DNA of 64,000 nt from positions 1,054,001-1,118,000 of the forward strand of contig NZ_JAUSXQ010000001.1 in the NCBI RefSeq assembly GCF_030816115.1, written 5' to 3'. Below the pieces are notes generated by a model that was given only the letters and a program-made list of their open reading frames with translations, was not told the origin of the DNA and made no database searches. Made by a program: the position numbers and the translations under genes. The stretch is from Chryseobacterium sp. W4I1 (GTDB taxonomy: Bacteria; Bacteroidota; Bacteroidia; Flavobacteriales; Weeksellaceae). Positions 5,888-43,366 of this stretch are shown here, in pieces. Within the stretch, counting starts at the first letter, position 1. Each line of letters opens with the position of its first letter.

Positions 5888-5901
5888 TGCAATCGATTGC
5901 G
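5888..5901. promoter_or_regulatory. LacI-type operator upstream of susC
   Basis: TGCAATCGATTGCG contains the perfect 12-bp palindrome GCAATCGATTGC (5889-5900), about 130 bases before the susC start. The identical 12-mer recurs before the SnoaL-like gene at 43354, and close variants recur before kduI, the GH28 cluster and rhaT. An even palindrome with a central CG is typical of LacI-family sites, and a LacI-family gene lies at 17213-18241. Confidence 0.8.
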
Positions 5902-6571
5902 TAAATTTTCATAATAAATATCTTGGCTTCTAAACTAATATTATTTTTCAATACGCAAAGAAAAAAATATTATTTTTTCATTAATTTGATTATTGTGGAA
6001 TGGATGTATTTACAAAATATGAACTGTTCTATTGATTTAAAATATTGGAAATTAGTTAATTAATAATTTAAAAAATACTTTGATTTTTTTTGTAAAAAGA
6101 ATTTTTTTCCTTAAAATTTATTAATTTAAAACTTAAAATTTGCTTAAAATTTATCTTTTTTTGCTCTTAAAGACTTCCCAAAAATGACAGTCAGGATCAA
6201 TATTTCTGATTTTTTGGCTGATTTTTGTCATATTTTAAGGATAATATTTTAACTCAATTTTAAACTTGATATTAATTATTATCATTGTATACAATATATA
6301 GAGTAGTTTTAATATATTTTTACCAAATCAATATTAATTTTCTGTTATTGTTTTTTGGCATGATTTTATAATTAATCATCATTTTAGTATTAATTTTGGT
6401 TAATATGATCGGCATAATTTCCATTAATTGCTTCTCAAAATCTTCTCAATTTTAATTTTATTTAATTGTAATTCAGGTTTTTATAATTTAATATTAATTT
6501 TTTATTAACTAATTGAAGAATAATTATATATTTAGCAACAAGTATTTCTACAAAATTTTAGTGTAATTTTA

Positions 6572-6585
6572 TGCAATCGATTACA
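6572..6585. promoter_or_regulatory. LacI-type operator upstream of kduI
   Basis: TGCAATCGATTACA matches the 12-bp palindrome at 11 of 12 positions and sits 57 bases before the kduI ATG. It lies downstream of a TATATTTA element at 6527-6534, so a bound repressor would block transcription of the hexuronate operon. Binding by the LacI protein at 17213 is an inference. Confidence 0.78.
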
Positions 6586-6641
6586 CAATGTTTAACAGGT
6601 TTTGATAAAACCGCAAAATGAAAGTATAAAAACTAAGCAGT

Positions 6642-7478
6642 ATGACACAATCAGAATTTCGTTACGCCCACCATCCTGAAGATGCAAAAAAGTATACTAC
6701 TGAAGATCTTAGGAGGGAGTTTCTAATCAATGATTTATTTAATGAAGATAAGATAAAATTAGTCTATACTATGTATGATAGGCTGATTGTAGGAGGTGTA
6801 ATGCCTTCAGCAAAAGCTTTGAAACTGGAACCAACAGACGATTTGAAAGCCGAGAATTTCCTTGACAGGAGAGAACTGGGGATCATCAACGTCGGTGGTG
6901 CCGGAAAAGTGACTGTAGACGGCGAAGTATATGAGCTTGCCAACAAAGAAGCTTTATATATTGGTAAAGGAGCAAAAGAAGTGGTTTTTGAAAAGTCGGG
7001 TGATGCACAACCTTATTTTTACATCAATTCAGCTCCGGCGCATCATACGTATCCCACAAAAAAGATCACGAAAAACGAAGCCGAAATTGTAGAATTAGGA
7101 GAAGAAAAATACGCTAATAAGCGTACGATCAACAAACTGATTGTTAATTCTGTCCTTGAAACGTGTCAATTACAAATGGGAATGACAGAGCTTCACCCGG
7201 GAAGTGTTTGGAATACAATGCCTTCACATACCCACACAAGAAGAATGGAAGCATATTTCTATTTTGATTTGGAAGAAGGTCAGACGATCAGTCATTTCTT
7301 AGGACAGCCTCAGGAAACGCGTCATATTTTTATGCAGAACCGTCAAGCAGTACTGTCTCCGGAATGGTCAATCCACTCAGGGGTAGGGACTTCTAATTAT
7401 ACTTTTATCTGGGGTATGGCCGGGGAAAATATGGACTACGGTGATATGGACGGTATCAAGACTAACGAACTAAAGTAA
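6642..7478 (+). CDS. kduI: 5-dehydro-4-deoxy-D-glucuronate isomerase (KduI)
   Basis: This cytoplasmic isomerase converts 5-keto-4-deoxyuronate, formed from the unsaturated end of pectin-lyase products, to 2,5-diketo-3-deoxygluconate for KduD. It is 278 residues, the standard length. The zinc-binding cupin motif is visible as SHTHTRRMEAY, giving His196, His198 and Glu203, and the later IHSG supplies the fourth ligand. It is the first gene of the hexuronate operon, with an operator palindrome 57 bases upstream, and kduD follows after 8 bases. Confidence 0.97.
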   Translation: MTQSEFRYAHHPEDAKKYTTEDLRREFLINDLFNEDKIKLVYTMYDRLIVGGVMPSAKALKLEPTDDLKAENFLDRRELGIINVGGAGKVTVDGEVYELANKEALYIGKGAKEVVFEKSGDAQPYFYINSAPAHHTYPTKKITKNEAEIVELGEEKYANKRTINKLIVNSVLETCQLQMGMTELHPGSVWNTMPSHTHTRRMEAYFYFDLEEGQTISHFLGQPQETRHIFMQNRQAVLSPEWSIHSGVGTSNYTFIWGMAGENMDYGDMDGIKTNELK

Positions 7479-7486
7479 TCTTTCTA

Positions 7487-8269
7487 ATGAATTTATTTGA
7501 TTTATCCGGAAAAGTAGCCGTTGTTACAGGCGGTACTCACGGATTAGGAATGGCAATGGCAGAAGGTCTTGCCGCTGCAGGTGCTGAACTGGCTATTACA
7601 AGTACGACACCGTCAAAATTAGAGGAAGCTTTAAACTATTATCACGGTAAAGGATACAAAGCAACCGGTTATCTTTTTGACGTGACGGACGAGCTGGAAG
7701 CCGCTCAGAAAGTAGCGCTTATGGAAGCCACTCATGGAAAAATAGACATCCTTGTCAACAACGCAGGAATTATAAAACGTATTCCCGCAATTGAGATGGA
7801 AGTTGAAGACTTTAGAAAAGTAATTGATGTAGATCTTACAGGACCTTTTATCATGTCGAAATTAGTCGGCAAACATATGATCAAAAGAAGATCCGGAAAG
7901 ATCATCAATATCTGCTCGATGATGAGTGAGTTGGGACGAGACAATGTAGTGGCGTATGCTTCTGCAAAGGGCGGTCTGAAAATGCTTACCAAAAATCTGG
8001 CAACAGAATGGGCAAAACATAATATTCAGGTGAACGGAATCGGTCCCGGATATTTTGCAACTTCTCAGACAGAACCAATTCGGGTGGATGGACATCCTTT
8101 CAACGATTTTATCATCAGCAGAACGCCGGAAGGAAGATGGGGAAACCCTGAAGACCTTGCTGGAACGGCTATTTTCCTTGCTTCGGACGCAAGCAGATTC
8201 ATCAACGGACAGATTATTTACGTTGATGGCGGAATTTTAGCGACCATCGGAAAACCTGCTAATGAATAA
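7487..8269 (+). CDS. kduD: 2-dehydro-3-deoxy-D-gluconate 5-dehydrogenase (KduD), SDR family
   Basis: This NAD(P)-dependent short-chain dehydrogenase reduces 2,5-diketo-3-deoxygluconate to 2-keto-3-deoxygluconate (KDG), the point where the unsaturated and saturated uronate routes meet. Its 260 residues show the glycine-rich TGGTHGLG, the NNAG motif, the catalytic YASAKGG (Tyr and Lys four apart) and a C-terminal YVDGG. It is directly downstream of kduI and 18 bases before uxaC, so co-transcription is very likely. Confidence 0.95.
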   Translation: MNLFDLSGKVAVVTGGTHGLGMAMAEGLAAAGAELAITSTTPSKLEEALNYYHGKGYKATGYLFDVTDELEAAQKVALMEATHGKIDILVNNAGIIKRIPAIEMEVEDFRKVIDVDLTGPFIMSKLVGKHMIKRRSGKIINICSMMSELGRDNVVAYASAKGGLKMLTKNLATEWAKHNIQVNGIGPGYFATSQTEPIRVDGHPFNDFIISRTPEGRWGNPEDLAGTAIFLASDASRFINGQIIYVDGGILATIGKPANE

Positions 8270-8287
8270 CAACAGAATTAGATTAGA

Positions 8288-9685
8288 ATGAAACCTTTTA
8301 TTACAGATCAATTTTTATTACAAAATAAATACGCTGAAGAATTGTACTTCAAATACGCGGAAAAGCAACCCATCATTGATTATCATAATCATTTGATTCC
8401 CAAAGATATTGCAGAAGACACCGTTTTCGAAAATATTTCAAAGGTTTGGATTGCAGGCGACCATTACAAATGGAGAGCGATGCGTACCATGGGGGTGAAC
8501 GAAAAATTCATCACCGGAGATTCTTCAGATAAAGAAAAATTTGAAGCTTGGGCTAAAACGGTTCCTTATACATTGAGAAATCCTTTGTATCACTGGACGC
8601 ATTTAGAATTAAAAAGATATTTCGGAATCGATGAATTGTTAAATGAAAACAATGCGTCAGAAATTTACGAAAACATCACCGCTCAGCTTCAGACGCCTGA
8701 AAAATCGACAAGAGGTTTATTGAAAATGATGAATGTAGAATCTCTGTGCACAACGGAAGATCCTACAGATCTATTGAATTATCATCAGGATTTGGCAAAA
8801 AGTGATTTCAGCATTAAAGTGAGCACTGCTTTCCGTCCTGATAAAGCGATTTTGATTGAAAACCACAACTTTGCAGATTATATTTCAAAATTGGGCGAAT
8901 CGGCCGGAATTGAAATTAATTCTTATCAGACATTGTGTGATGCTTTATTGAAAAGAATTGAATATTTCCACGAAAACGGATGCAGATTGTGCGACCACGG
9001 ATTGAACAATATTTCTTTTGAAGAAGCTACAGAAGCAGAAGTTAGTGCTATTTTCAATGATAAAATTTCAGGAAAAGTGATTGCTGAAAAACAGGTTAAC
9101 CAGTTCAAAACAGCCATTTTATTGTTCTTAGGCGAAGCTTATCACAAGTTCGGTTGGGTTCAGCAGTTCCACTTGGGAGCGCTGAGAAATAATAATGAAA
9201 GAATGCATAGAATTCTTGGTCCGGACACGGGTTGGGATTCCATCGGTGACTTCGTTCAGGCTGAAACGCTGTCTAAATTTTTAAATACACTTGACGGAAA
9301 AGATAAATTAACGAAAACCATTTTATATAACTTAAATCCTGCCGATAATGAGGTTTTCGCAACAATGATCGGGAATTTCAACGATGGCAGCATCAAAGGA
9401 AAAGTACAGTTCGGTTCAGGATGGTGGTTCCTTGACCAGAAAGACGGAATGATCAAGCAGATGAACGCCCTTTCAAACATGGGATTAATCAGCTGTTTCG
9501 TTGGAATGCTGACGGATTCCAGAAGTTTCCTTTCTTATCCGAGACACGAATATTTCAGAAGAGTATTGTGCAATCTTTTCGGTGAAGAAATGAAAAACGG
9601 TGAATTACCAGATGATATTGAGCTGATTGGTAAAACAGTGTCAGACATTTGTTATCATAATGCTAAAAATTATTTTGATTTTTAA
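8288..9685 (+). CDS. uxaC: Glucuronate/galacturonate isomerase (UxaC)
   Basis: UxaC isomerises D-galacturonate to tagaturonate (and glucuronate to fructuronate), the first step for saturated uronic acids. Its 465 residues match the family length. The amidohydrolase-like metal motif DYHNHLIP is seen near residue 31, with FHLGALRNNN and a tryptophan-rich GSGWWFLDQKDGM later. It is third in the operon. A block of inverted repeats separates it from kdgK, so the operon may be read at reduced level beyond here. Confidence 0.96.
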   Translation: MKPFITDQFLLQNKYAEELYFKYAEKQPIIDYHNHLIPKDIAEDTVFENISKVWIAGDHYKWRAMRTMGVNEKFITGDSSDKEKFEAWAKTVPYTLRNPLYHWTHLELKRYFGIDELLNENNASEIYENITAQLQTPEKSTRGLLKMMNVESLCTTEDPTDLLNYHQDLAKSDFSIKVSTAFRPDKAILIENHNFADYISKLGESAGIEINSYQTLCDALLKRIEYFHENGCRLCDHGLNNISFEEATEAEVSAIFNDKISGKVIAEKQVNQFKTAILLFLGEAYHKFGWVQQFHLGALRNNNERMHRILGPDTGWDSIGDFVQAETLSKFLNTLDGKDKLTKTILYNLNPADNEVFATMIGNFNDGSIKGKVQFGSGWWFLDQKDGMIKQMNALSNMGLISCFVGMLTDSRSFLSYPRHEYFRRVLCNLFGEEMKNGELPDDIELIGKTVSDICYHNAKNYFDF

Positions 9686-9705
9686 ATTTTAAATTAAATA
9701 AAAAA

Positions 9706-9778
9706 CTCTCGCAGATTTAGCTGATTCCGCAGATCTTTTAAACATAACCATCTGCAAAATTTGCTAAATCTGCGAGAG
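9706..9778. repeat. Long inverted repeat downstream of uxaC
   Basis: Perfect 16-bp arms CTCTCGCAGATTTAGC (9706-9721) and GCTAAATCTGCGAGAG (9763-9778) enclose an inner pair GCAGAT (9729-9734) and ATCTGC (9750-9755). This would form a strong cruciform or RNA stem. It resembles the 'cgcagatt' dispersed elements of flavobacterial genomes and may act as a terminator or mRNA stabiliser. Confidence 0.75.
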
Positions 9779-9795
9779 ATAGAAATAAAATTTTA

Positions 9796-9913
9796 AACCA
9801 TTAAGGAAGTTTAAGAGGTTAAGGTGAATTAAGAAAATCAAATTGATTTAAATATCTGAAGGCAAAGTCAACCTTAACTTTTCTAAATTCCTTAAATAAA
9901 TCTTAATGGTTAA
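9796..9913. repeat. Second, nested inverted repeat upstream of kdgK
   Basis: Outer arms AACCATTAAG (9796-9805) and CTTAATGGTT (9902-9911) enclose inner arms GTTAAGGT (9818-9825) and ACCTTAAC (9871-9878). The same outer words form the terminator-like stem at 35695-35746, and related words occur at 39580-39695. This is therefore a dispersed family, not a one-off. Confidence 0.65.
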
Positions 9914-9961
9914 AAAAATCTGTAATTTTTTCTACTTAAAAAGTCTTTGAGATCTTGGCTG

Positions 9962-10029
9962 AGTGAAACGCCTTTGCAAACTTAAAAACAGTTAGTAGTT
10001 AAAAAAAACTTTGCGCACTTTGCGTTAAA
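9962..10029 (+). repeat. Dispersed repeat, AGTGAAACGCCTTTGC family, copy 1
   Basis: This stretch of about 68 bases starts AGTGAAACGCCTTTGC and ends CTTTGCGTTAAA. Close copies occur at 13558-13616 and 39744-39812. All three are in the same orientation upstream of plus-strand catabolic genes. No protein is encoded. Confidence 0.7.
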
Positions 10030-10074
10030 TAAAAGCAGATCTTTTAAAAACTTAAATGATCATTAATTAAAACA

Positions 10075-11082
10075 ATGAGCAACAAAATAGTCACATTCGG
10101 AGAAGTCATCATGCGACTTTCGCCACCCGGAAACAGAACCATGAAGCAAAGCCACGAAATGGAATTCTTTTTCGGCGGAACAGAGCTTAATGTAGCATCT
10201 TCATTGGCAACAATGGGTTGTGACGTGAGACATATCAGCAGCGTTTCTGATGATTTCGTGGGTGAATCGGCGGTTTCTTTCATCAAAAGTTTCGGAATTG
10301 ACACAACTTTCATCAACAAAAATGAACATCCTTTAGGTTTGTATTTTTTGGAAGTGGGTTCATCAGTTCGCGCCAGCAGAATTGCTTACAACAGATTGAA
10401 CGGTTCTTTTGCAAACATTAAATCTGAACAAATCGACTGGAAAAAAGCGCTTGAAGGCTGCAAATATTTCCACTGGACAGGTATCAGTCCCGGAATTTCA
10501 GAATCGGCTTATGAAAGTTTGAAAGAAGGTTTACAAACAGCTCGTGAATTGGGAATTGAAGTTACATCAGACCCGGCTTACCGCTCCAACCTTTGGAAAT
10601 ATGGCAAAAACGGGAATGAGGTTTTGAAAGAATTGGTTTCATATTCAACGATTTTCATCGGTGGCGTGAATGAAATTAATGAAATTCTCGGAACTCAGTT
10701 TTCATCAGATAAAGATGGTTTCATGGAAGCTTGTAAAGAATTAAAACAACAAATTCCTTCCATTCATAAAATATTTGACAAGATAAGAATCGGTGTTACA
10801 GCAAGTTCTCAGCAAACGCAGGGAAGAGCTTTAGTTGAAGACAATTATTTTGAAACTGAGCTTTTAGAAGTTAACCCTGTGGTTGATAGAATCGGGACGG
10901 GGGATGCTTTTGCAGCAGGTTTGATTTATGGTTTAATCAATTTTGATGACGAAAAAGCATTAAAATTTGCCAACGTAGCCTGCGCCATTAAACACACCAT
11001 TTTAGGTGATATTAATTACAGCAGCGCAGAAGATATTCTGGAAGTGATGAACGGAGATTCAGGAGGAAGAATAAAAAGATAA
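10075..11082 (+). CDS. kdgK: 2-keto-3-deoxygluconate kinase (PfkB family)
   Basis: KdgK phosphorylates KDG to KDPG using ATP. The 335-residue protein has the PfkB/ribokinase fold: an N-terminal FFGGTELNVASSLA sugar-binding segment and the C-terminal anion-hole motif DRIGTGDAFAAGLIYG carrying the catalytic Asp. It follows uxaC after about 390 bases of repeats and precedes kdgA by 165 bases. Its place between the KDG-forming enzymes and the KDPG aldolase makes the substrate clear. Confidence 0.93.
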   Translation: MSNKIVTFGEVIMRLSPPGNRTMKQSHEMEFFFGGTELNVASSLATMGCDVRHISSVSDDFVGESAVSFIKSFGIDTTFINKNEHPLGLYFLEVGSSVRASRIAYNRLNGSFANIKSEQIDWKKALEGCKYFHWTGISPGISESAYESLKEGLQTARELGIEVTSDPAYRSNLWKYGKNGNEVLKELVSYSTIFIGGVNEINEILGTQFSSDKDGFMEACKELKQQIPSIHKIFDKIRIGVTASSQQTQGRALVEDNYFETELLEVNPVVDRIGTGDAFAAGLIYGLINFDDEKALKFANVACAIKHTILGDINYSSAEDILEVMNGDSGGRIKR

Positions 11083-11247
11083 TTTGCTTCTGATGATTGG
11101 CTTTTAGCAACTCGCTTACAGCTAAAACTAGAATATGTGCCCTTTGCGTTAAAAATGAAAGATTAAGATAAAATCTTGAAGGTACAGCATACTAAAGGAT
11201 GGATTAAATTCCATCAAAGATTATTTTCAACAAAATAATTAACTAAA

Positions 11248-11913
11248 ATGACAAAAATTCAATCGGTTACAAATACGATCATCAACCAAGGAGTTTTACC
11301 TCTATATTATAATGCTGATGAGACAGTAACTTTAGAAATATTGAGATCACTTTACAAAGCAGGAATCCGTGCGGTAGAATATACAAGCCGTGGTGAAGCT
11401 GCGTTGAGTAATTTCACGAAGATGGTAGAAATTCGTAACGCAGAAATGCCGGAAATGCTTTTGGGAATCGGAACAATAAAAAATGTACAACAAGCTGAAG
11501 AATATTATAAAGCAGGTGCCGATTTCTTTATCAGTCCGGGTTTTGTGGCGGAAGTTGCAGAATTTTTGATTCCAAAAGATTTGTTATATAGTCCGGGTTG
11601 TATGACGCCGACAGAAATTATCGAAGCTGAAAATTCAGGCGTAACTTTCATTAAATTATTTCCCGGAAATGCTTTAGGAACCGGATTTATGAGCGCTATT
11701 AAAGATGTTTTCCCAAATCTAAAATTCATGCCGACCGGTGGTGTTGATACGACAAAAGAAAGCATTGAAAGCTGGTTCAAAGCCGGTGTTTCTGCCGTAG
11801 GAATGGGGAGCAAATTGGTAAGTAAAGAATTAATGCTTGCTAAAGACTATGCAACGCTAGAAAATGAAACTAAAAAAGTGCTGGAAATTATTCAGACTTT
11901 AAACAATAACTAA
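11248..11913 (+). CDS. kdgA: KDPG aldolase (2-dehydro-3-deoxy-phosphogluconate aldolase)
   Basis: This class I aldolase splits KDPG into pyruvate and glyceraldehyde 3-phosphate, the last step of the uronate pathway. It has 221 residues and a TIM barrel. The Schiff-base lysine is Lys136 in FIKLFPG, with EYTSRGEAAL and the phosphate-binding PTGGVDTTKE also visible. It is 15 bases before the transporter gene, so the two are co-transcribed. It could also be called eda. Confidence 0.95.
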   Translation: MTKIQSVTNTIINQGVLPLYYNADETVTLEILRSLYKAGIRAVEYTSRGEAALSNFTKMVEIRNAEMPEMLLGIGTIKNVQQAEEYYKAGADFFISPGFVAEVAEFLIPKDLLYSPGCMTPTEIIEAENSGVTFIKLFPGNALGTGFMSAIKDVFPNLKFMPTGGVDTTKESIESWFKAGVSAVGMGSKLVSKELMLAKDYATLENETKKVLEIIQTLNNN

Positions 11914-11928
11914 ATTCTGAATAGTAAT

Positions 11929-13458
11929 ATGAGTTCAGTTAAATCTCTTAAACCGACTACCTACAGATGGACGATATGTCTTCTGTTATTTCTCGCTACT
12001 ACGATCAATTATTTGGATCGTCAGGTGTTGTCATTAACGTGGAAAGACTTTATCGCACCAGAATTTCACTGGAATAACAACGATTACGGAAACATCACTG
12101 CATTGTTTTCTATATTTTATGCGGTAGGAATGCTTTTCGCAGGAAAGTTTGTGGATTGGATGGATACTAAAAAAGGTTTCCTTTGGGCAATCGGGATTTG
12201 GTCTGTTGGTGCGGTTTTACATGCATTCTGCGGAATTGCCACATCAGGGATTCTTACCGGAAACTGGTTAGCTGGCTTTCATGGTTCAAAAGAATTTATT
12301 TCTACTGTTTCCAATACATCTGCCATCATCAGTACGAGTGTTACGCTGTTCATTTTTGCACGTTTCGTATTGGCAATTGGTGAAGCAGGAAATTTCCCGG
12401 CAGCTATTAAAACTACGGCGGAATATTTCCCTAAAAAAGACAGAGCATTTTCTACAAGTATCTGGAATGCAGGAGCAACAGTTGGAGCTTTGGCAGCACC
12501 ACTTACTATCCCTTTTATTGCAAAATCAATGGGTTGGGAATGGGCATTTATCATTATTGGTGCTTTAGGATTTGTATGGATGGGACTTTGGGTATTTGTT
12601 TACAAAAAACCACATTTACATAAGAGAGTTAACGAACATGAATTAACCTATATCAATCAGGATCAGGACGATCTTCCCAATGAAGACACTTCTGTTCCTG
12701 AAAAAGTATTTACATTCAAAGAATGTTTCAGCTACAGACAGACTTGGGCGTTTGCGTTTGGGAAATTCATGACAGACGGAGTTTGGTGGTTCTTTTTATT
12801 CTGGACACCTGCTTATTTAAGTTCGGTTTACAAAATGGATTCCACGCAAAGTGCATTACCATTATTCGTCCTTTATATGATCACTTTATTGTCGATTATC
12901 GGCGGCTGGCTTCCAAAATATTTCGTTGAAAAAAGAGGAATGAACGCCTATACAGGAAGAATGAAAGCGATGTTAATTTTTGCATTTTTCCCTTTATTAG
13001 CACTTTTAGCACAGCCTTTAGGAAAGATTACGTATTGGATTCCTGTATTAATTATCGGGATTGCAGGAGCAGCACATCAGGCTTGGTCGGCAAATATTTT
13101 CTCGACGGTTGGCGATATGTTTCCTAAAAAAGCGATTGCAACGATCACTGGAATTGGCGGAATGGCAGGAGGAATCGGATCATTTTTAATCAATAAATCT
13201 TCTGGCTTATTGTTTGATCATGCTCATAAAGCATGGACAACGGTTGACGGAATTCCATTGTTGGAAAAATATCCGCAATATATCAACGAACGTCTGCCGG
13301 AAGGTTTTTTTGAACAATTAGAAAAATCAGGAGCCGTAATTTCAGACGGAATCGATAAAGGGTATATGATTATTTTTTCGATCTGTGCAGTGGCGTATTT
13401 AATTGCATGGACCGTAATGAAAGCATTGGTTCCAAAATATAAAGTGATCAGTAAATAA
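11929..13458 (+). CDS. MFS transporter, ExuT-like hexuronate carrier
   Basis: This inner-membrane major facilitator protein of 509 residues has twelve predicted hydrophobic segments. The first carries NYLDRQVLSL, a signature shared with ExuT and other anion:cation symporters. It probably brings galacturonate, glucuronate or unsaturated uronates from periplasm to cytoplasm. The exact substrate is inferred from its position between kdgA and uxaB. It is somewhat longer than E. coli ExuT because of a loop near residues 105-125 and an extended C-terminal loop. Confidence 0.88.
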   Translation: MSSVKSLKPTTYRWTICLLLFLATTINYLDRQVLSLTWKDFIAPEFHWNNNDYGNITALFSIFYAVGMLFAGKFVDWMDTKKGFLWAIGIWSVGAVLHAFCGIATSGILTGNWLAGFHGSKEFISTVSNTSAIISTSVTLFIFARFVLAIGEAGNFPAAIKTTAEYFPKKDRAFSTSIWNAGATVGALAAPLTIPFIAKSMGWEWAFIIIGALGFVWMGLWVFVYKKPHLHKRVNEHELTYINQDQDDLPNEDTSVPEKVFTFKECFSYRQTWAFAFGKFMTDGVWWFFLFWTPAYLSSVYKMDSTQSALPLFVLYMITLLSIIGGWLPKYFVEKRGMNAYTGRMKAMLIFAFFPLLALLAQPLGKITYWIPVLIIGIAGAAHQAWSANIFSTVGDMFPKKAIATITGIGGMAGGIGSFLINKSSGLLFDHAHKAWTTVDGIPLLEKYPQYINERLPEGFFEQLEKSGAVISDGIDKGYMIIFSICAVAYLIAWTVMKALVPKYKVISK

Positions 13459-13557
13459 TATTAGATAAATAGATCAGTCTAAACCTTCAAGGTTTCAAAA
13501 ATATTGCAGGTTTGATTAAACGAAAATAGATCCAAAGATTTTATAGTAGTCTTAGTT

Positions 13558-13616
13558 AAGTGAAACGCCTTTGCGAACTTAAAAACAGTTAGTAGTCAAA
13601 AAAAACTTTGCGTTAA
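13558..13616 (+). repeat. Dispersed repeat, AGTGAAACGCCTTTGC family, copy 2
   Basis: AAGTGAAACGCCTTTGCG followed by AACTTAAAAACAGTTAGTAG and CTTTGCGTTAAA closely matches copy 1 (9962) and copy 3 (39744). It lies in the 183-base gap between the transporter and uxaB. Just upstream is a small palindrome AAACCTTCAAGGTTT (13479-13493). Confidence 0.7.
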
Positions 13617-13641
13617 AAATAAAATCATCGAGTTAAAAAAG

Positions 13642-15105
13642 ATGGAAAATCAGACAAAACAGAAATTAAATCGTGAATTAATAGGTTTTAAGGAAAAACT
13701 TCCGATCAGAATTGTACAGTTTGGAGGCGGAAATTTCATGAGAGGATTCACAGATTGTGTAATTGATAAATTAAATAAAGAAGCAGGATTTAATGCAGGA
13801 ATTGTAAATGTACAGCCAACTCCGGGCGGTTCGGTTCATAAACTGGAAGAGCAGGATAATTTGTACACTCTTTTCTCAAGAGGAATTAAAAAAAGGGAGA
13901 TCATTGATACAAAACAAGTGATTTCTGCGATTCAAAAATCGATCAATCCTTATACAAATTACGATGAATTCTTAGCATTGGCAAAAGAAGAAGAATTAGA
14001 ATTTATCTTCTCCAATACAACAGAAACGGGAATTGCTTACGATGAATCAGAAAATAATTATGCGGGTGCGCACAAGAATTTTCCTGCGAAACTAACGGTT
14101 TTATTATACGAAAGATTCAAACATTTCAATGGAGCAGAAGATAAAGGATTGAGAATTATTCCTTGTGAACTGATCGAAGACAATGCTTTAGCTTTAAAAG
14201 AAATTATCTTAAAATATGCCCAACTTTGGAATTTAGATTTTAACTTTGTGCAATGGATTGAACATAGTAATTATTTCCACAATACATTGGTAGACAGGAT
14301 CGTTCCGGGTTATCCGAAAGATGATGCAGAAACCTATGAAGATCAGTTAGATTATGAAGATCAAATGATGGTGGTTTCGGAAGTCTTTTTGCTTTTTGTG
14401 ATTGAGGATCTGGCAAATCTAAAAGAAAGAATTCCTTTCGATAAAATTGACGAGCAGATTTTGGTTGTTGATGATATTCAGCCATATCGTTTAAGAAAAG
14501 TGAGAATTTTGAATGGTGGTCATACGTTGATGTTGGCTCCGGCTATTTTATCAGGAAAAGAAACGGTAAAGGAATCTATTGATGATCAGTTTTTAGGTCA
14601 GTTTTTAAGTGAAACAATATTCAATGAAGTAAACCCGACGTTAGGTTTAGATGAAAATGAATTAAAGGATTTTGCTGAAGAAGTTTTCGACCGGTTCAGA
14701 AATCCTTTTATCAAACATTATCAGGCAAGTATTGCACTGTATTTTGTATCTAAATTTAAAGTGAGAATTCTTCCGAGCCTGATAAAATATGTTGAAATTA
14801 ACCAAAAATTACCGCTTAATTTAACCTTTTCATTGGCAAGTTTAATCAGATTCTATCAAGGGAATTTTGGTGAAAAATCTCTTCCGATAAATGATGAAGA
14901 AGCGATTGTTGCTAGATTCAAGGAAATCTGGGTAAACGAAGATTATGAAAAAGTCGCAGAATTGGCGTTAAGCGAAACCACTTTCTGGGACACAGACCTT
15001 ACCAAGGTTATCGGCTTGAAGTCTGCAGTAGCAAAGGCATTGTGGGAAATTGATCACAACGATATCGAAACTGCATATCACAACTTTATACAATTTTATT
15101 CTTAA
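13642..15105 (+). CDS. uxaB: Tagaturonate reductase (altronate oxidoreductase)
   Basis: UxaB reduces tagaturonate to altronate with NADH and belongs to the mannitol dehydrogenase family of long-chain dehydrogenases. The 487 residues start with the nucleotide-binding RIVQFGGGNFMRGFTD segment. The catalytic region includes RKVRILNGGHTLMLAPA, with the family's Lys and the conserved asparagine-histidine. uxaA follows after 3 bases, so the two are translationally close. Regulation is presumably shared with the rest of the uronate operon. Confidence 0.95.
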   Translation: MENQTKQKLNRELIGFKEKLPIRIVQFGGGNFMRGFTDCVIDKLNKEAGFNAGIVNVQPTPGGSVHKLEEQDNLYTLFSRGIKKREIIDTKQVISAIQKSINPYTNYDEFLALAKEEELEFIFSNTTETGIAYDESENNYAGAHKNFPAKLTVLLYERFKHFNGAEDKGLRIIPCELIEDNALALKEIILKYAQLWNLDFNFVQWIEHSNYFHNTLVDRIVPGYPKDDAETYEDQLDYEDQMMVVSEVFLLFVIEDLANLKERIPFDKIDEQILVVDDIQPYRLRKVRILNGGHTLMLAPAILSGKETVKESIDDQFLGQFLSETIFNEVNPTLGLDENELKDFAEEVFDRFRNPFIKHYQASIALYFVSKFKVRILPSLIKYVEINQKLPLNLTFSLASLIRFYQGNFGEKSLPINDEEAIVARFKEIWVNEDYEKVAELALSETTFWDTDLTKVIGLKSAVAKALWEIDHNDIETAYHNFIQFYS

Positions 15106-15108
15106 AAA

Positions 15109-16725
15109 ATGATGCAAAAGAAAGTACTGAAAGTAAATCCCAAAGATAATGTAACAGTGGCATTGGTTGATCTGACGCAGGGAGAAACTGTTACTTTGGA
15201 CGATCTTACGTATGAAATTATAAAAGACACCAAGGCGAAACATAAATTCGTGACCGAAGATCTTGCCATTGGAGACGAGATTATTATGTATGGTGTTTTA
15301 GTCGGGAAAGCGAGTCAGCCGATCCAGAAAGGAGAGGTTATCACGACTGAGAACGTTAAGCATCAAAGCGCAAAAATAGAAGGTAAAACAGAAACAACTT
15401 CATGGACTGTTCCGAATGTTGATAAATGGAAGGATAAGACTTTCATGGGCTATCACAGAGAAGACGGACAGGTCGGAACAGAAAACGTTTGGTTATTTTT
15501 TCCATTGGTTTTTTGTGAAAACAGAAATGTTGAGATTTTAAAAGATGTTTTTGAAAAAGAATTATTGTTCGAAAAAGCGACAAAGCATCAGCTTTTATTA
15601 AGATCGTTAATTAATAATTCGGAAACGGAAACTGCTGTTGAAGAAGATCAGGACTCAAGGGTTTTTAAAAATATTGAAGTTAAATTCATCACGCACCAAG
15701 GCGGTTGTGGCGGTATTCGTCAGGATGCGGAAGCATTGGGAAGGTTATTGGCAGGTTATGTGAATAATCCGAACGTAGCCGGAGCAACGGTTTTGAGTTT
15801 GGGTTGTCAGAATTTACAGGTTCAGATTTTTACAGATGCATTGCAAAAAATAAGTCCGAATAATAAAAAACCGATCATCGTTTACGAACAACAAAAGTCT
15901 GGAACCGTTGATGAAATGCTCAACGGAATCATCAAAGATTCTTACGAAGCCATCAAAAAAGCCAATGAAATTGAAAGAAAGCCGGCGCCAATTTCAAAAT
16001 TGGTTTTAGGATTGGAATGTGGTGGCTCAGACGGTTTTTCAGGAATTTCTGCCAATCCGGTTTTAGGACAATTATCAGATTTAATGGCAGGAATCGGTGG
16101 TTCAACCATCCTTTCAGAATTCCCCGAATTATGCGGAGTAGAGCAGGAATTGGTGAACCGGTGTGTGAACGAAGAAGATGCCGAAAGATTTTTACAGCTA
16201 ATGAAAGATTTTGAAGAATCAGTCGTTGCTGCAGGTTCAGGTTTTGATATGAACCCGTCACCGGGGAATATCAAAGACGGACTGATAACCGATGCCATGA
16301 AGTCTGCAGGAGCGGCTAAAAAAGGCGGTTCATCTCCGATAAATGACGTTCTCGATTTTACAGAATACATCAAAGAACCAGGCTTAAATTTATTATGTAC
16401 CCCCGGAAATGACGTTGAATGTACAACGGCTTTAGTCGGTTCCGGCTCAAACGTAGTTTTATTTACGACAGGTTTGGGAACGCCAACTGGAAATCCGGTT
16501 GTTCCTGTAGTAAAAATTTCGTCAAACACTTCTTTATCAGAAAGAATGCCCGATATCATTGACTTTAACACAGGAGACGTGATTACAGGCGAAAAAACAA
16601 TCGACGAAAAAGCAGAAGAGCTTTTAGAATTTATCATTGAAGTCGCAAGCGGAGAGGTAAAAACAAAAGCCGCAATTTTAAATCAAAACGATTTTATTCC
16701 CTGGAGACGGGGAGTAAGTTTATAA
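15109..16725 (+). CDS. uxaA: Altronate dehydratase
   Basis: UxaA dehydrates D-altronate to KDG, completing the saturated galacturonate route. It is the full-length fused form of 538 residues, with an N-terminal SAF domain (about residues 5-95) and the larger dehydratase domain. Cysteine and glycine motifs HQGGCGGIRQ, SLGCQN and LECGGSDGFSG, probable iron ligands, are visible. Two adjacent ATGs (15109 and 15112) are possible starts. A strong hairpin terminator follows, so it is the last gene of the operon. Confidence 0.95.
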   Translation: MMQKKVLKVNPKDNVTVALVDLTQGETVTLDDLTYEIIKDTKAKHKFVTEDLAIGDEIIMYGVLVGKASQPIQKGEVITTENVKHQSAKIEGKTETTSWTVPNVDKWKDKTFMGYHREDGQVGTENVWLFFPLVFCENRNVEILKDVFEKELLFEKATKHQLLLRSLINNSETETAVEEDQDSRVFKNIEVKFITHQGGCGGIRQDAEALGRLLAGYVNNPNVAGATVLSLGCQNLQVQIFTDALQKISPNNKKPIIVYEQQKSGTVDEMLNGIIKDSYEAIKKANEIERKPAPISKLVLGLECGGSDGFSGISANPVLGQLSDLMAGIGGSTILSEFPELCGVEQELVNRCVNEEDAERFLQLMKDFEESVVAAGSGFDMNPSPGNIKDGLITDAMKSAGAAKKGGSSPINDVLDFTEYIKEPGLNLLCTPGNDVECTTALVGSGSNVVLFTTGLGTPTGNPVVPVVKISSNTSLSERMPDIIDFNTGDVITGEKTIDEKAEELLEFIIEVASGEVKTKAAILNQNDFIPWRRGVSL

Positions 16726-17212: not shown

Positions 17213-18241
17213 CTACTTCCTTTTCGAAGATTTCCTGATATAAAGCTGCGGCGCCAACACCACTTTTTTCTCGATAGAAACCCCGGAACCATTTTCCTTC
17301 ACACTATCAATAAAAACCTGCCCCGCCATTTTCCCCATGATAACGGGAGTCTGATCCACAGAACTCATTGGAAGCTCCATAAATTGGGTAAAAGGTTCGT
17401 TGGAAAATCCAATAACTGCTACTTCCTGAGGTATTTTAATCTTACGCTTTTTTAATTCCTGGCAAGCGCCCAACGCTGCAAAATCACTTGATGAGAAAAT
17501 AGCATCGGGAACCGATTTTCCATCCCAAAGTTTTTTAACCGCATCAATTCCCTCATCAATTGAACTTCCGGTTGTGATGATGTTTTCCTCTTTTATACTT
17601 AAATTATGATCAATTAAAGCCTGTTTGTAACCATTCAGACGATTCTGATAAATTTCAAGATTTAAATCACCGGAAAAATGGCAGATATTTTTATAACCTT
17701 CGTTAATCAGGTGTTCCGTCGCCATGTAACCGCCACGATAATCGTCGATGGTCACTGTACTGATTCCTGAAATGTCTTTTTTACGGTCAAAAAATATAAT
17801 GGGAGTGTTGGTTGTGTCCAAAATACTTTGGATATGATCGGTATCAAGAGTTGTCTTGGAAACCGACATGAAAATCCCGTCAACCTGGGCGTTAAGCAGC
17901 GTGTTTAGATGCCTTTTTTCAATATTCACATCCTCATGACTCTGGCAGATAATCACATGATAACCATGGGGAGAAAGCTCTTCCTCAATTCCCCGGATCA
18001 CCGATGAAAAGAAATTGGTATTGATGTAAGGAACGATGATTCCTACGTTTTTGGTTTCCCCGCTTTTCAGAGCTTTGGCAAGATTATTTTGCTTGTAATT
18101 CATTTCTTTGGCCGTTTTCCTGACCAAATCTTTCGTTGCCACGCTTATTCTCGGATGATCGTTCAATGCTCTGGAAACAGTTGCCACACTTACGTTTAGC
18201 TTCTTTGAGATGTCATATATTGTGGCATTTTTTTTATTCAT
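17213..18241 (-). CDS. LacI-family transcriptional regulator of pectin/uronate genes
   Basis: This is a DNA-binding sugar-responsive repressor of 342 residues from the ATG at 18241. An in-frame ATG at 18283 would add 14 residues, but LacI proteins normally begin a few residues before the helix-turn-helix, so the shorter start is preferred. The N-terminus reads ATIYDISKKLNVSVATVSRA, the LacI helix-turn-helix with its hinge helix, followed by VGIIVPYINTNFF and a periplasmic-binding-like effector domain to the end. It probably binds the GCAATCGATTGC palindromes before susC, kduI, the GH28 cluster, rhaT and the SnoaL gene. The effector may be KDG or a related intermediate; both points are inferences. 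Confidence 0.92.
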   Translation of the reverse strand: MNKKNATIYDISKKLNVSVATVSRALNDHPRISVATKDLVRKTAKEMNYKQNNLAKALKSGETKNVGIIVPYINTNFFSSVIRGIEEELSPHGYHVIICQSHEDVNIEKRHLNTLLNAQVDGIFMSVSKTTLDTDHIQSILDTTNTPIIFFDRKKDISGISTVTIDDYRGGYMATEHLINEGYKNICHFSGDLNLEIYQNRLNGYKQALIDHNLSIKEENIITTGSSIDEGIDAVKKLWDGKSVPDAIFSSSDFAALGACQELKKRKIKIPQEVAVIGFSNEPFTQFMELPMSSVDQTPVIMGKMAGQVFIDSVKENGSGVSIEKKVVLAPQLYIRKSSKRK

Positions 18242-18575: not shown

Positions 18576-18696
18576 ATTAATAAAACTATTTTCTTCAAAG
18601 ACTTCTAAATATAAAACTGAAGCTAAAAACCAGCCAATTTCGAAGATTTATAATCCGTGATTTTAACTAAAAACAGCTTTGATTATCTAATATTGA

Positions 18697-18708
18697 GCAA
18701 ACGATTGC
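18697..18708. promoter_or_regulatory. LacI-type operator between lacI and the RG-I enzyme cluster
   Basis: GCAAACGATTGC matches the palindrome at 11 of 12 positions. It is 285 bases before the GH28 start and about 455 bases before the lacI start, so it could serve either divergent unit. The rest of this 750-base gap is repeat copy B plus AT-rich sequence, with GCAGGATA at 18784-18791 and a TTTACAGTAAA palindrome at 18974-18984. Confidence 0.7.
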
Positions 18709-18993
18709 ACAAAAGGATAATTAATTTAATTTTGAAGAGAATTCAATCGGGAACAAAAATCGCAAATTAATCAACATGAAAGAGCAGGATACCGTCAAGT
18801 CCTAAAATGTATACTTTTATGAAAATGAAACGAAATAATAATTTCATTATACAGTTGAAAGTTATTTGCTGATTTTTCATAAAAAAGATTGAATAAATTT
18901 TATTTAAAATGATATTCCTTTATTTTGTCATTCTTTTTTGAAATACTTAATTATTAATTAATAAAAATCAGGATTTACAGTAAAAAATAAATT

Positions 18994-20364
18994 ATGAATT
19001 TTCAAAATATCTCACTCTTATCCCTGTTTTTTTTCTTATTATTTTCATCAGGAGTAAAAAGCCAGGATAAATTTCCCGATGGAACACCTATCCCGAAATG
19101 GTTTAAAGAAAATAAGCCAACAGACCTTAATAAATTAGGAAAAAAGTACATTATTACAGATTTCGGGGTTAAAAACGACAGTACAATTCTTCAAACAAAA
19201 GAAGTTCAGGCCGTTATTGATATGGCTGCTAAAAACGGAGGGGTAATCATCGTTCCAAAAGGAACATTCCTGATCAGCTCTGTTTTCTTTAAGCAGGGAA
19301 CGCATTTGCATTTGGAGAAAGGCGCGAAGCTGAAAGGAAGTGATGATATCAGTGATTTCCCGGTCGTAGAAACAAGGATGGAAGGCCAGACGGTGAAATA
19401 TTTTCCGGCATTAATCAACGCAAACGGATTGGATGGCTTTACCATATCAGGAAAAGGAACGTTGGACGGAAATGGATTGCGCTTTTGGAAGGCATTCTGG
19501 AAAAGACGCCAATGGAATCCTAAATGTACAAATATGGACGAAATGAGGCCTCGGATCATCTATATTTCAAATTCAAAAAATGTTCAGATTGAAGATATTA
19601 CTGTGAAAAATTCGCCTTTCTGGAGCACACATTATTATAAGAGTGAATTTGTGAAATTGCTGAATTTAACGATTTTAGCACCGAAAGAACCGGTAAAAGC
19701 ACCGAGTACGGACGCCGTTGATATTGATGCATGTACCAATTTCCTAATTAAAAACTGCTATCTGTCAGTAAACGATGATGCCATTGCATTGAAAGGCGGA
19801 AAAGGTCCGAAAGCAGATAAAGATCCCAACAATGGTGAAAACAGGAATATCATCATTGAAGACAATACTTTTGGATTCTGCCATTCTGCATTAACTTGTG
19901 GAAGTGAATCGATTCATAATTACAATATCATTTTCAGAAACTCAACAGTAAAAGATGCATCAAGATTATTGCACTTAAAAATGAGACCGGATACGCCGCA
20001 ACATTACGAATATATTACCCTTGATAACATCAAAGGAAATGTAAAAACCTTCCTCTATATAAAAGGTTGGAATCAGTTTTTTGATTTGAAAGGAGAGGAG
20101 AAACCGAAAACCAGATCGGCAAATAATATTGTGTTAAAAAATATAGATATCAGTTGTGAAACAGGCTTTGACATTGAAAAATCAGACTTGTATGAACTGA
20201 AAGATTTTACCTTTGAAAACCTAAAGATAAAAGCACTGAAGCCTGAAGAACAGAATTTAAGCGTGATTAAAAATCTTAAGAAAGTAAAGGTAGAAGTCAC
20301 AAAAGAAAGCACGCTCAATACATCTTATGATAAAAAAGACGATACCGACGCCGCCCAAAAATAA
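18994..20364 (+). CDS. GH28 polygalacturonase / rhamnogalacturonase
   Basis: This secreted pectin-cleaving hydrolase has 456 residues, an N-terminal signal peptide (to about residue 24) and a parallel beta-helix. The GH28 active-site landmarks appear in divergent form: STDAVDID (238-245), VNDDAIALKGG (near 259-269), CHSALTCGSE (296-305) and LKMRPD (328-333). The canonical RIK is replaced by a KMRP sequence seen in one branch of GH28. It heads a tightly packed cluster with the CE12 gene 9 bases downstream. Whether it is exo- or endo-acting, and on homogalacturonan or RG-I, cannot be read from sequence. Confidence 0.9.
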   Translation: MNFQNISLLSLFFFLLFSSGVKSQDKFPDGTPIPKWFKENKPTDLNKLGKKYIITDFGVKNDSTILQTKEVQAVIDMAAKNGGVIIVPKGTFLISSVFFKQGTHLHLEKGAKLKGSDDISDFPVVETRMEGQTVKYFPALINANGLDGFTISGKGTLDGNGLRFWKAFWKRRQWNPKCTNMDEMRPRIIYISNSKNVQIEDITVKNSPFWSTHYYKSEFVKLLNLTILAPKEPVKAPSTDAVDIDACTNFLIKNCYLSVNDDAIALKGGKGPKADKDPNNGENRNIIIEDNTFGFCHSALTCGSESIHNYNIIFRNSTVKDASRLLHLKMRPDTPQHYEYITLDNIKGNVKTFLYIKGWNQFFDLKGEEKPKTRSANNIVLKNIDISCETGFDIEKSDLYELKDFTFENLKIKALKPEEQNLSVIKNLKKVKVEVTKESTLNTSYDKKDDTDAAQK

Positions 20365-20373
20365 TTATTCATA

Positions 20374-21696: not shown

Positions 21697-21804
21697 AACT
21701 AAGTTTTGAAGTTTAAATAATTTAAGGTCCTTCTAAAAAGCCGGATTACTCACTTAAGTAACGAATGTGTTTAAAGCTTTTGTGATTAAATTTAAAAGTT
21801 AAAA

Positions 21805-25609: not shown

Positions 25610-25615
25610 AAAATT

Positions 25616-25680: not shown

Positions 25681-25692
25681 CAAAGAAGATTT

Positions 25693-27567: not shown

Positions 27568-27635
27568 TCAGTCGTAATGCTTATAATTCAAACTATTTAA
27601 ACTAATACATTGTAAAATAAAAAATATATATAATT

Positions 27636-29071: not shown

Positions 29072-29085
29072 CGCAATCGATTTCA
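29072..29085. promoter_or_regulatory. LacI-type operator upstream of rhaT
   Basis: CGCAATCGATTTCA matches the palindrome at 11 of 12 positions (29073-29084) and lies 37 bases before the rhaT ATG. This suggests rhamnose uptake is controlled together with pectin and uronate genes. Confidence 0.72.
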
Positions 29086-29121: not shown

Positions 29122-30210
29122 ATGAATGCATTATTAGGAGTTTTTTTTCACTTCTTAGGAGGTTTTTCTTCAGGGAGCTTTTACTTGCCCTATAAAAAAG
29201 TAAAAGGCTGGTCATGGGAAACGTATTGGTTAATAGGAGGTGTTTTTTCCTGGATCATTGTTCCGCCATTGGCTGCCTTTATGACCATTCCTGATTTTTG
29301 GGAAATCATTCAGAATGAAAGTTCCTCCATATTGGGGCTGACGTTTCTGTTCGGGGCCCTGTGGGGAATTGGTGGTTTTACTTATGGTTTGGGAGTCCGA
29401 TATTTAGGGGTAGCACTTGGAAGCAGCATTATTTTGGGGCTTTGTATGGTGTTTGGCTCGCTGGTTCCTTCTATTTATTATGAATTTTCTCCGCAAACAG
29501 GAAAAGACAATATCGGTTTATTGTTTTCCAGCAAATGGGGACAGTTTGTATTATTGGGACTTCTGATTTGTGTCATTGGAATCATCATCAGCGGGAAAGC
29601 GGGAATGATGAAGGAAAAAGAACTGCAAAAAACTTCAATAGATCCGCATGGTACGGAAGTAAAAACGGAATATAAATTCGGGTTGGGAATAATAGTTTCC
29701 ATCATTTCCGGCGTTTTAAGTGCATGTTTCAATTTCGGACTGGAAGCTGGGAAACCAATGGCTATCGTAGCCAATGAAGCCTGGAAACTAGCCAATCCGG
29801 GACAGGGAGAATTCCTTTTTCAAAACAATGTAACCTATGTGGTTGTCCTTTGGGGCGGGATGGCGGTCAATCTGATCGGCTGTCTGTATTTGGCTTTTAA
29901 AAATAAATCTTACACCGATTATACTAAGAGAAATGTACCTGTTGTGAAAAATCTCATTTTCTGTGCCCTTGCCGGAACCATGTGGTTTTTACAGTTTTTC
30001 TTTTACGGTATGGGCGAAAGTAAAATGGGAAATGGCGCCAGCTCGTGGATTTTACATATGGCATTTATAATTTTCATTGCTAATTTGTGGGGAATTATCA
30101 TCAAAGAATGGAAAGGAGTTTCCAAAAGAACTATTACTACCATTGCTGTTGGAATGATCGTCATGTTTATTTCCATTTTAATGGTTGGGTATGGAAATTC
30201 TTTAAGATAG
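29122..30210 (+). CDS. rhaT: L-rhamnose/proton symporter RhaT
   Basis: This inner-membrane carrier of 362 residues has about ten hydrophobic segments. The N-terminus GVFFHFLGGFSSGSFYLPYK and the following KVKGWSWETYW match the RhaT family. It brings rhamnose released by GH106 and other enzymes into the cytoplasm. It stands alone, with an operator just upstream and an intrinsic terminator just downstream. Confidence 0.94.
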   Translation: MNALLGVFFHFLGGFSSGSFYLPYKKVKGWSWETYWLIGGVFSWIIVPPLAAFMTIPDFWEIIQNESSSILGLTFLFGALWGIGGFTYGLGVRYLGVALGSSIILGLCMVFGSLVPSIYYEFSPQTGKDNIGLLFSSKWGQFVLLGLLICVIGIIISGKAGMMKEKELQKTSIDPHGTEVKTEYKFGLGIIVSIISGVLSACFNFGLEAGKPMAIVANEAWKLANPGQGEFLFQNNVTYVVVLWGGMAVNLIGCLYLAFKNKSYTDYTKRNVPVVKNLIFCALAGTMWFLQFFFYGMGESKMGNGASSWILHMAFIIFIANLWGIIIKEWKGVSKRTITTIAVGMIVMFISILMVGYGNSLR

Positions 30211-35756: not shown

Positions 35757-35867
35757 TAAATCACATCATCTAAAATATTAATTAAATAACCTCAGTTAGA
35801 TTGATCCCGGATAAATTAAACTGTAAAAACTCAACGTTAATTTATCTTTAAATACAGTATTTACCAG

Positions 35868-35899
35868 TATAGTACGGGATGCTGTAAAAGATATTACAG
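35868..35899. promoter_or_regulatory. Candidate regulatory site upstream of the rhamnulose-P aldolase gene
   Basis: TATAGTACGGGATGCTGTA carries the RCRGGATR core. It overlaps an inverted repeat CTGTAA-N6-TTACAG (35882-35899), about 40-70 bases before the gene start. The TGTAA/TTACA half-sites resemble the palindromes upstream of gntR (44547, 44629), so this may be a GntR-type site. The assignment is tentative. Confidence 0.42.
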
Positions 35900-42487: not shown

Positions 42488-42540
42488 TTTTTGATATGAA
42501 GATGGAAGATGGAAGTTTAAAGTTTTATAGAATAAATTTA

Positions 42541-42605
42541 TCAATAGGAACGGGCTTTAGCCCGTTTTTCATTGTAAAAAATTCTGATTGGCTTTAGCCA
42601 AAACT
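42541..42605 (+). repeat. Dispersed double-hairpin repeat (GGGCTTTAGCCC family), copy 3
   Basis: TCAATAGGAACGGGCTTTAG begins the copy. The first stem is the perfect ACGGGCTTTAGCCCGT and the second TTGGCTTTAGCCAAA. The rest of the gap to 42863 has CTTTGCGTTAAA words, a GAATCAA/TTGATTC stem and the terminator at 42815. Confidence 0.78.
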
Positions 42606-42814
42606 GATCATTCTGTTTACTGGTTTCAAAATATTTTAAACGCAAAGATTAGTTTTAAGAACACATAATTTTAAGAAGCAAAGTAATGCGACAAAGTCGC
42701 TGATGAAGCTAGCTTCGTAAGAATCAATTTTATTGATTCCATTCTTTGCTAACTTAAAAATATTCAGGATCTTAAATAAAACTTTGCGTTAAAAAACTAA
42801 ACAGTGCAAAATAA

Positions 42815-42842
42815 AAATTCGCAAAGACAACCTTGCGAATTT
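42815..42842. terminator. Bidirectional terminator between convergent genes
   Basis: AAATTCGCAA (42815-42824) and TTGCGAATTT (42833-42842) pair exactly. T-rich sequence follows on both strands, suiting the convergent lactate dehydrogenase and SnoaL-like genes. Confidence 0.82.
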
Positions 42843-42863
42843 TGTTTATTACAATGTAGAAGT

Positions 42864-43307
42864 TTATTTCTTCTTCTCAGATTTTACAGCCTGTCTTGCC
42901 AACAATTTCCAGTCGTTTTTCACTTTTGCCCAAACCAACAATACATCCAATGTTACATCACCCGGAGCTTTTCCAGAATCAGCAGTCGTTGCATAAAAAT
43001 GGTGGCGAACAATCGCTGTATTGTCAACAATATTGATCGTTTGATTGGTAATATCAATGGTTACAAAATCTGATTTTTTACTGACTAATTTATCGACAAA
43101 TTCTGTGGCGTCGTCTATGTGACCTCCTGAATGTCCATACGTTAGTTCCGGTAAAATCAAAGATTCTAAGGCAGATTTTTCACCGCTTATCATTGCTGAT
43201 CTTAATTCTTCAGCAGCGTCAGAAACCGCGTCTTTATCATTCTTTTTCTGTCCGAATACAGAAAGTGCCATTAAAAAAGTCGTGGCAAAAATTAATTTTT
43301 TAATCAT
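42864..43307 (-). CDS. Secreted SnoaL-like / DUF4440 (NTF2-fold) protein
   Basis: This 147-residue protein has a signal peptide (to about residue 19, SVFGQ) and an NTF2-like alpha+beta cone fold. The SGEKSALESLILPELTYGHS segment and the pattern of VDNTAIVRHHFYAT and LLVWAKVKNDWKLLARQ strands are typical of DUF4440/SnoaL-like proteins. No enzymatic role can be assigned. Its promoter carries a perfect LacI-type operator identical to the one before susC, which suggests a part in pectin or sugar metabolism, perhaps handling an unstable uronate product; that is speculation. Confidence 0.8.
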   Translation of the reverse strand: MIKKLIFATTFLMALSVFGQKKNDKDAVSDAAEELRSAMISGEKSALESLILPELTYGHSGGHIDDATEFVDKLVSKKSDFVTIDITNQTINIVDNTAIVRHHFYATTADSGKAPGDVTLDVLLVWAKVKNDWKLLARQAVKSEKKK

Positions 43308-43352
43308 AATTAAACAATGTTAAATAGTAAACTTTAAAGTATATATTGATAA

Positions 43353-43366
43353 TGCAATCGATTGCG
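43353..43366. promoter_or_regulatory. LacI-type operator upstream of the SnoaL-like gene
   Basis: TGCAATCGATTGCG repeats base for base the 14-mer found upstream of susC (5888-5901). It is 47 bases before the SnoaL-like start and 22 bases after the gntR stop, so it controls the small gene alone. Confidence 0.8.

Follow-up and report, generated by a model that had tools for sequence, protein, structure and literature searches.

Among the Bacteroidota, the closest described counterparts of the system considered here are the LacI-family regulators of uronate and 2-keto-3-deoxygluconate (KDG) catabolism in Bacteroides thetaiotaomicron, namely KdgR (BT0487), UxaR (BT0824), UxuR and UxmR, whose regulons in Bacteroides are described as predicted in the relevant passages of two surveys (PMC3878776, PMC4052901). 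The first of these also places rhamnogalacturonan loci of Bacteroides under the control of hybrid two-component systems (HTCS) (PMC3878776). Here, we examine a 64,000-nucleotide stretch of the genome of Chryseobacterium sp. W4I1 (the window), in which a palindromic word recurs around genes for pectin import, depolymerisation and uronate catabolism, with a gene for a LacI-family protein, lacI, lying among them. We consider it about 90% probable that the 14-mer TGYAATCGATTRCA is the operator of this protein, which would repress the pectin genes as separate transcription units. The likeness to the Bacteroides LacI regulons is one of description.

A genome-wide scan for the palindrome, proposed as a check by an earlier sequence-only reading of the window, strongly localises it. 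Allowing at most one mismatch, GCAATCGATTGC occurs seven times in the whole 4,621,265-bp genome, and all seven copies lie between positions 1,035,500 and 1,097,365, in one 62-kb pectin region around lacI that makes up 1.3% of the genome. The pattern read backwards, which served as the control, gave three matches genome-wide at the same stringency. By simple arithmetic, the odds of seven random points sharing one such stretch are of the order of 1e-11 to 1e-10. Six of the sites fall in the window, and the seventh lies 18.5 kb to its left. The sequence-only reading had reported two copies of the exact 14-mer TGCAATCGATTGCG, at 5888 and 43353, together with 12-mer cores carrying one mismatch at 6573, 18697 and 29073, all five of them intergenic, and each of these statements proved correct. 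Its claim that the exact copies are far above chance also held, with two in the window and a mean of 0.000 over 300 dinucleotide shuffles. The list was nevertheless incomplete, as it overlooked both the site at 25401, upstream of a PL11 rhamnogalacturonan lyase gene, and the seventh site. At one mismatch or fewer, the six sites of the window compare with a shuffle mean of 0.163, and none of the 300 shuffles had six. Perfect 12-bp palindromes occur 18 times in the window, and this palindrome is the only word among them that repeats.

Conservation of the sites upstream of orthologous genes in related genomes, on which the same reading had staked its proposal, is pronounced. We scanned the 350 bp before each orthologue for TGYAATCGATTRCA at two mismatches or fewer, using, for 21 genomes (the window's among them), the 60-94 kb that surround lacI, and excluding orthologues below 55% identity, hits starting past residue 40 and upstream regions of fewer than 200 bases. 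Six target genes pooled had the site in 62/65 upstream regions (susC1 18/18, kduI 19/20, PL11 7/7, DUF4440 6/6, GH28a 6/7 and rhaT 6/7), whereas non-target genes, with lacI counted apart, had it in 6/263, and shuffled target upstreams in 4/325. Of the six off-target hits, uxaA accounted for three (in two Epilithonimonas and in Leeuwenhoekiella), GH28b for two (an exact match in C. sp. ISL-6 and one in C. gregarium) and uxaC for one (in Flavobacterium sp. Sd200). At rhaT, all six positive orthologues carry the site at two mismatches, and C. sp. ISL-6 has three.

Alignment of the gap between susC1 and kduI (n = 15, mean column identity 0.76) shows positions 5888-5901 and 6571-6584 to be invariant in 15/15, with the last base of the kduI operator varying. 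When 14-base windows of this gap were ranked (n = 890), those at 5888 and 6572 came 10th and 42nd, and other invariant islands exist. Positions 5930-5947 (CTAAACTAATATTATTTT) are invariant in all 15 gaps, and their opposite strand holds a -7-like element for susC1.

The protein predicted to read this palindrome is encoded by the only PF00356 gene in the genome. It has the helix-turn-helix and periplasmic-binding-protein-like sensor domains of the LacI family, and its nearest solved chains are LacI-family proteins, with CcpA the best. The open reading frame (ORF; 17213-18283) is over-long at its 5′ end, and translation probably starts at 18241, where 72 of 80 orthologues have a methionine. Across these 80 fetched orthologues, residues A34, T35, V36, S37, R38 and L72 are invariant, and V33 is valine in 71 and alanine in nine. 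The predicted operator TGYAATCGATTRCA is an even inverted repeat with a central CG, as expected for the family; in the part of the survey seen, such palindromes are given for 1173 of 1303 LacI factors (PMC4052901). The operator position expected of LacI-family sites is matched within a few base pairs at susC1, kduI, rhaT and DUF4440, and is missed at GH28a (-298), at the window's PL11 gene (-293) and by the intragenic seventh site.

Presence of the motif also follows presence of lacI. Among 197 genomes of the family that were at least 90% complete, with lacI orthologues called at E <=1e-100, the exact 14-mer TGYAATCGATTRCA was found in 55/68 with lacI against 5/129 without, a contrast that relatedness inflates. 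Inside genera, the corresponding figures are 24/33 against 0/27 (g1), 10/10 against 0/26 (g22) and 15/18 against 0/3 (g7). Genomes with kduI and no lacI had the motif in 0/7 cases, these being other genera with a more distant kduI. Such patterns bear on the notion that the palindrome is non-regulatory and either serves in methylation or DNA structure or repeats by chance. It does contain ATCGAT, a palindrome of the restriction-site type, but the confinement of all seven sites to so small a part of the genome, the retention of the palindrome while its flanks vary, and its co-occurrence with lacI leave this explanation with a negligible probability.

A different reader could be the product of gntR, the GntR-type gene beside the 43353 site, acting as a rhamnose or pectin regulator with the palindrome as its operator. 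The gntR gene ends 20 bp from that site. In a wider set of DUF4440 loci (30 examined of 38 found), the site is present in 16/30, and only where the locus also has gntR (16/22 with the gene, 0/8 without it). Moreover, all 34 genomes with gntR among the 197 also have lacI, even where the two genes are on different contigs. However, none of eight genomes has a site within 350 bp of gntR itself, and 29/34 genomes with lacI and without gntR keep the exact motif, so GntR is not needed; we rejected it as the reader of the motif and regard that assignment as highly improbable. A conserved-dyad search for a GntR motif found none for gntR, rhaK or GH28b and none common to the genes tested. Mismatch numbers at the DUF4440 loci fall into two classes, 0-2 and 4-6, a split that would be expected if a genuine site had been gained or lost, and in C. 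populi (G198) the DUF4440 site and lacI lie on different contigs.

Several observations weigh against assigning the palindrome to LacI. Because the sites of the window itself served to choose the target genes, the window rows in the upstream scan are circular; without the window genome, the count is 56/59. In the wider DUF4440 set, 14/30 loci are without the site. Relaxing the genome scan to two mismatches yields mainly noise, with 80 sites where the control gives 47, and weak sites or new regulon members are therefore not callable from it; in the window, the same stringency gives eight sites against a shuffle mean of 3.00, and 3/100 shuffles reach eight. Of the 68 genomes with lacI, 13 lack the exact 14-mer. 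Four of the 13 are the only lacI-bearing genomes without kduI, and among the nine that have both genes, at least G160 and G209 carry one-mismatch sites. Conversely, five genomes (G080, G093, G094, G103, G118) have one exact 14-mer each and no lacI orthologue; there, another LacI paralogue may read it. The seventh site is intragenic, and the survey passages seen report fewer than 1% of LacI sites in coding sequence (PMC4052901). The same passages give 72% of LacI factors as autoregulated, a usual but not required trait (PMC4052901), whereas lacI in the window's genus has no site of its own.

The DUF4861 gene that contains the seventh site precedes pectic-acid-lyase ORFs. Among 17 genomes scanned, the window's included, 11 have this gene, and 10 of these carry the site at +47 with two mismatches or fewer; in C. 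populi and C. soli it is the perfect TGCAATCGATTGCA. As for lacI, a site within 350 bp upstream was found in 3/21 genomes, comprising 0/15 in the window's genus and 3/6 in others. In loci L084-L087, of which three are Flagellimonas-type and one is from Leeuwenhoekiella, the site stands 213-236 bp before the lacI ORF. Autoregulation within the window's genus was consequently rejected, with no site in 15/15 genomes. The 18697 site had been attributed to either the GH28-CE12-GH106 cluster or lacI itself; the first attribution stands, with the site conserved at GH28a, and the second does not. The features discussed are collected in Table 1.

Table 1. Genes, operators and the second sequence element of the pectin region (window positions unless stated otherwise).
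Feature	Position	Strand	Evidence or remark
susD1	911..2725	-	SusD_RagB
susC1, TonB-dependent importer	2738..5758	-	Plug domain
Operator 1, TGCAATCGATTGCG	5888..5901		130-143 bp upstream of susC1 start; leftward homogalacturonan importer/enzyme run
Operator 2, TGCAATCGATTACA	6572..6585		57-70 bp upstream of kduI
kduI-kduD-uxaC-kdgK-kdgA-exuT-uxaB-uxaA, uronate catabolism run	6642..16725	+	Pfam
lacI, repressor gene	17213..18241	-	PF00356, PF00532, PF13377 above cut-off
Operator 3, AGCAAACGATTGCA	18696..18709		Before GH28a-CE12-GH106; position -298 relative to GH28a
GH28a, GDSL (CE12-like) esterase, GH106 rhamnosidase	18994..24582	+	Pfam; CE12 label from the sequence-only reading
Operator 4, CGCAATCGATTGAA	25400..25413		Belongs with PL11; 280-293 bp upstream
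PL11 rhamnogalacturonan lyase and GH88/GH105-type hydrolase	25693..28799	+	Pfam
Operator 5, CGCAATCGATTTCA	29072..29085		37-50 bp upstream of rhaT; weakest operator
rhaT, rhamnose importer	29122..30210	+	PF06379
DUF4440 (SnoaL-like) protein	42864..43307	-	PF14534; signal-peptide-like start
Operator 6, TGCAATCGATTGCG	43353..43366		46-59 bp upstream of DUF4440 gene
gntR, GntR-type gene	43387-44433		Adjoins 43353 site
Seventh site	L096:1499-1512; genome 1,035,500		Inside DUF4861 gene; begins 47 bases in, in the signal-peptide coding part
Second element, CAGKATANTRCRGGATGC	35865-35882 (rhaEW); 30482-30499 (susC2); weakly 29055 (rhaT)		10-bp direct-repeat look

From the sequence we infer binding, repression, effector and transcript boundaries along the following lines. 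A LacI dimer would bind the palindrome and block a series of separate transcription units: the homogalacturonan susCD/enzyme run, the kduI-uxaA run, the units beginning with GH28a and with PL11, DUF4440, and the DUF4861/pectic-acid-lyase unit, with rhaT presumably repressed more weakly. A cytoplasmic intermediate of pectin breakdown, for which KDG or a nearby keto-uronate is the likeliest candidate, would then release LacI, so that importers, enzymes and catabolism rise together; the choice of such a keto-uronate follows from the content of the regulon. A promoter scan based on the Bacteroidota consensus found a promoter-like TTG-N19-TAATTTTG at GH28a whose -33 TTG overlaps operator 3, and placed the susC1 operator just downstream of a near-consensus promoter. 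Both positions fit repression. The scan gave no clear answer at kduI, rhaT, PL11 or DUF4440. The kduI-uxaA run is likely to form one transcript: it contains gaps of 389, 165 and 183 bp, and no LacI site of their own was found in the 350 bp upstream of kdgK (21 genomes), kdgA (14) or uxaB (21).

The core of operator 4, at 25401 with one mismatch, overlaps the stop codon of an ORF at 24594-25412. In six relatives, the PL11 operator starts 40-49 bp upstream of the gene. In the window, positions 25414-25692, between operator 4 and PL11, hold about 250 extra bases that are partly repeated elsewhere in the window.

The idea that a single repressor links importers, enzymes, uronate catabolism and rhamnose uptake survives for the first three, given the conserved sites and the single LacI-family gene, and was overstated for rhamnose. 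There, the only link is the rhaT site, the weakest of the operators. No LacI site was found in the 350 bp upstream of susC2 (seven genomes) or of susD2, rhaEW, rhaI, rhaK and lldD (eight genomes each), so the rhamnose catabolic genes are without one, and susC2 and rhaEW carry another element, CAGKATANTRCRGGATGC, which first surfaced at rhaEW in the conserved-dyad search. We therefore think it fairly probable that two regulators divide the region, with LacI acting on pectin uptake, depolymerisation and uronate catabolism, a second factor acting on the rhamnose genes through CAGKATANTRCRGGATGC, and the rhaT promoter shared by both. Such a division is a refinement of the LacI explanation and no rival to it.

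The second element is exact at susC2 in 7/7 genomes, at -63 in six and -78 in one, and at rhaEW, where it lies at -73 or -74, it is exact in seven of eight genomes and has one mismatch in the other. Genome-wide, its two exact matches are both in the rhamnose module, and in 7/7 genomes the LacI site at rhaT directly adjoins a three-mismatch version. However, the consensus was drawn from the same two promoters on which it is scored, and the rhaT match is weak, as kdgA also has three-mismatch matches in 6/11 genomes. At two mismatches or fewer, the genome holds six matches, against one and three on the two strands of the control. An AraC-type gene is present at 59138-59962 in the window, and nothing links it to CAGKATANTRCRGGATGC.

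Gene order across the region, by Pfam, is susC1-susD1, the uronate run, lacI, GH28a through GH88/GH105, rhaT, susC2-susD2 with the rhamnose genes, DUF4440 and gntR. The leftward run continues outside the window with genes for GH88, GH43, GH28, pectinesterase, pectate lyase, GDSL and other esterases, a cupin and GH95 (Pfam). In the window, susC2 (30545-33584) consists of two ORFs (664 and 342 aa), where six relatives have a single ORF of 1012-1013 aa; this is a broken gene or a sequencing error. To the right of the pectin region, at 54381-61679, lie carotenoid-type genes (an amine-oxidase-like crtI, phytoene synthase and lycopene cyclase), followed by a cupin and the AraC-type regulator. An Rfam scan of the window returned no match.

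As judged from sequence, the palindrome is very probably the binding site of the single LacI-type repressor encoded in the region, and the circuit is well supported and useful, though of a conventional kind. For a group of Chryseobacterium-like bacteria, it provides an operator that can be tested and a list of genes for pectin use, and it names the uncharacterised DUF4440 and DUF4861 proteins as likely members of a pectin regulon. It also offers a case in which a LacI repressor appears to govern both polysaccharide attack and sugar catabolism. Searching the literature by motif letters and by topic, a scope that left most subscription papers and supplements outside and from which we claim no absence from print, we did not meet this operator described for these bacteria.

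CcpA is the global carbon catabolite regulator of Firmicutes and the best solved-structure match to the window's LacI, the helix letters ATVSR being common to both. It likewise belongs to the LacI family. The 14-mer TGYAATCGATTRCA fits the cre consensus of CcpA, WTGNAANCGNWNNCWW, and one Staphylococcus aureus cre site, given as 'predicted and/or verified', contains TGTAATCGATTACA (PMC9598941). The window's LacI is not a CcpA equivalog, scoring 178.7 bits against a TIGR01481 cut-off of 442.35. Escherichia coli GalR has what we take to be a Val-Ala pair in its recognition helix and a TGTAANC half-site, resembling V33-A34 and TGYAATC here. Its regulon is different, and the window's LacI scores 128.8 bits against the GalR cut-off of 557.

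Similarity extends to pectin systems as well. In Rhizobiales, rhamnogalacturonide genes are regulated by the LacI-family protein RhiR, which has an Erwinia orthologue and is alike in placing rhamnogalacturonan use under a LacI factor (PMC3870299); it belongs to another phylum, and the likeness is one of description. Rhamnose regulons are treated in the same source (PMC3870299). A very similar gene set makes up the pectin polysaccharide utilisation locus of Gramella flava JLT2011, with kduI, kduD, uxaC, kdgK, eda, uxaB, uxaA, susCD and 'exuR' (PMC5306329). There, a figure-legend annotation includes a hexuronate repressor gene, and the passages seen give no operator (PMC5306329).

The contrast with Bacteroides lies in the type of regulator. 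The palindrome is an inverted repeat, unlike the direct-repeat operator of an HTCS, and no histidine-kinase match was found among 42 scanned ORFs of the window (out of 55 that reach 100 aa, the remaining 13 being mostly overlapping ORFs) or among 17 ORFs of the left flank. In Bacteroides, as described in the passages seen, rhamnogalacturonan loci are under HTCS with direct-repeat sites (PMC3878776), whereas here one LacI palindrome stands at importer, depolymerases and catabolic run. We speculate, at roughly even odds, that in Weeksellaceae-type bacteria, and probably in marine Flavobacteriaceae, one LacI repressor may act as the central switch for all of pectin use. It would span import, secreted homogalacturonan and rhamnogalacturonan I depolymerases, uronate catabolism, DUF4440, DUF4861, and rhamnose import at a rhaT promoter abutted by the site of the second regulator, thereby doing the job that HTCS do for rhamnogalacturonan in Bacteroides.

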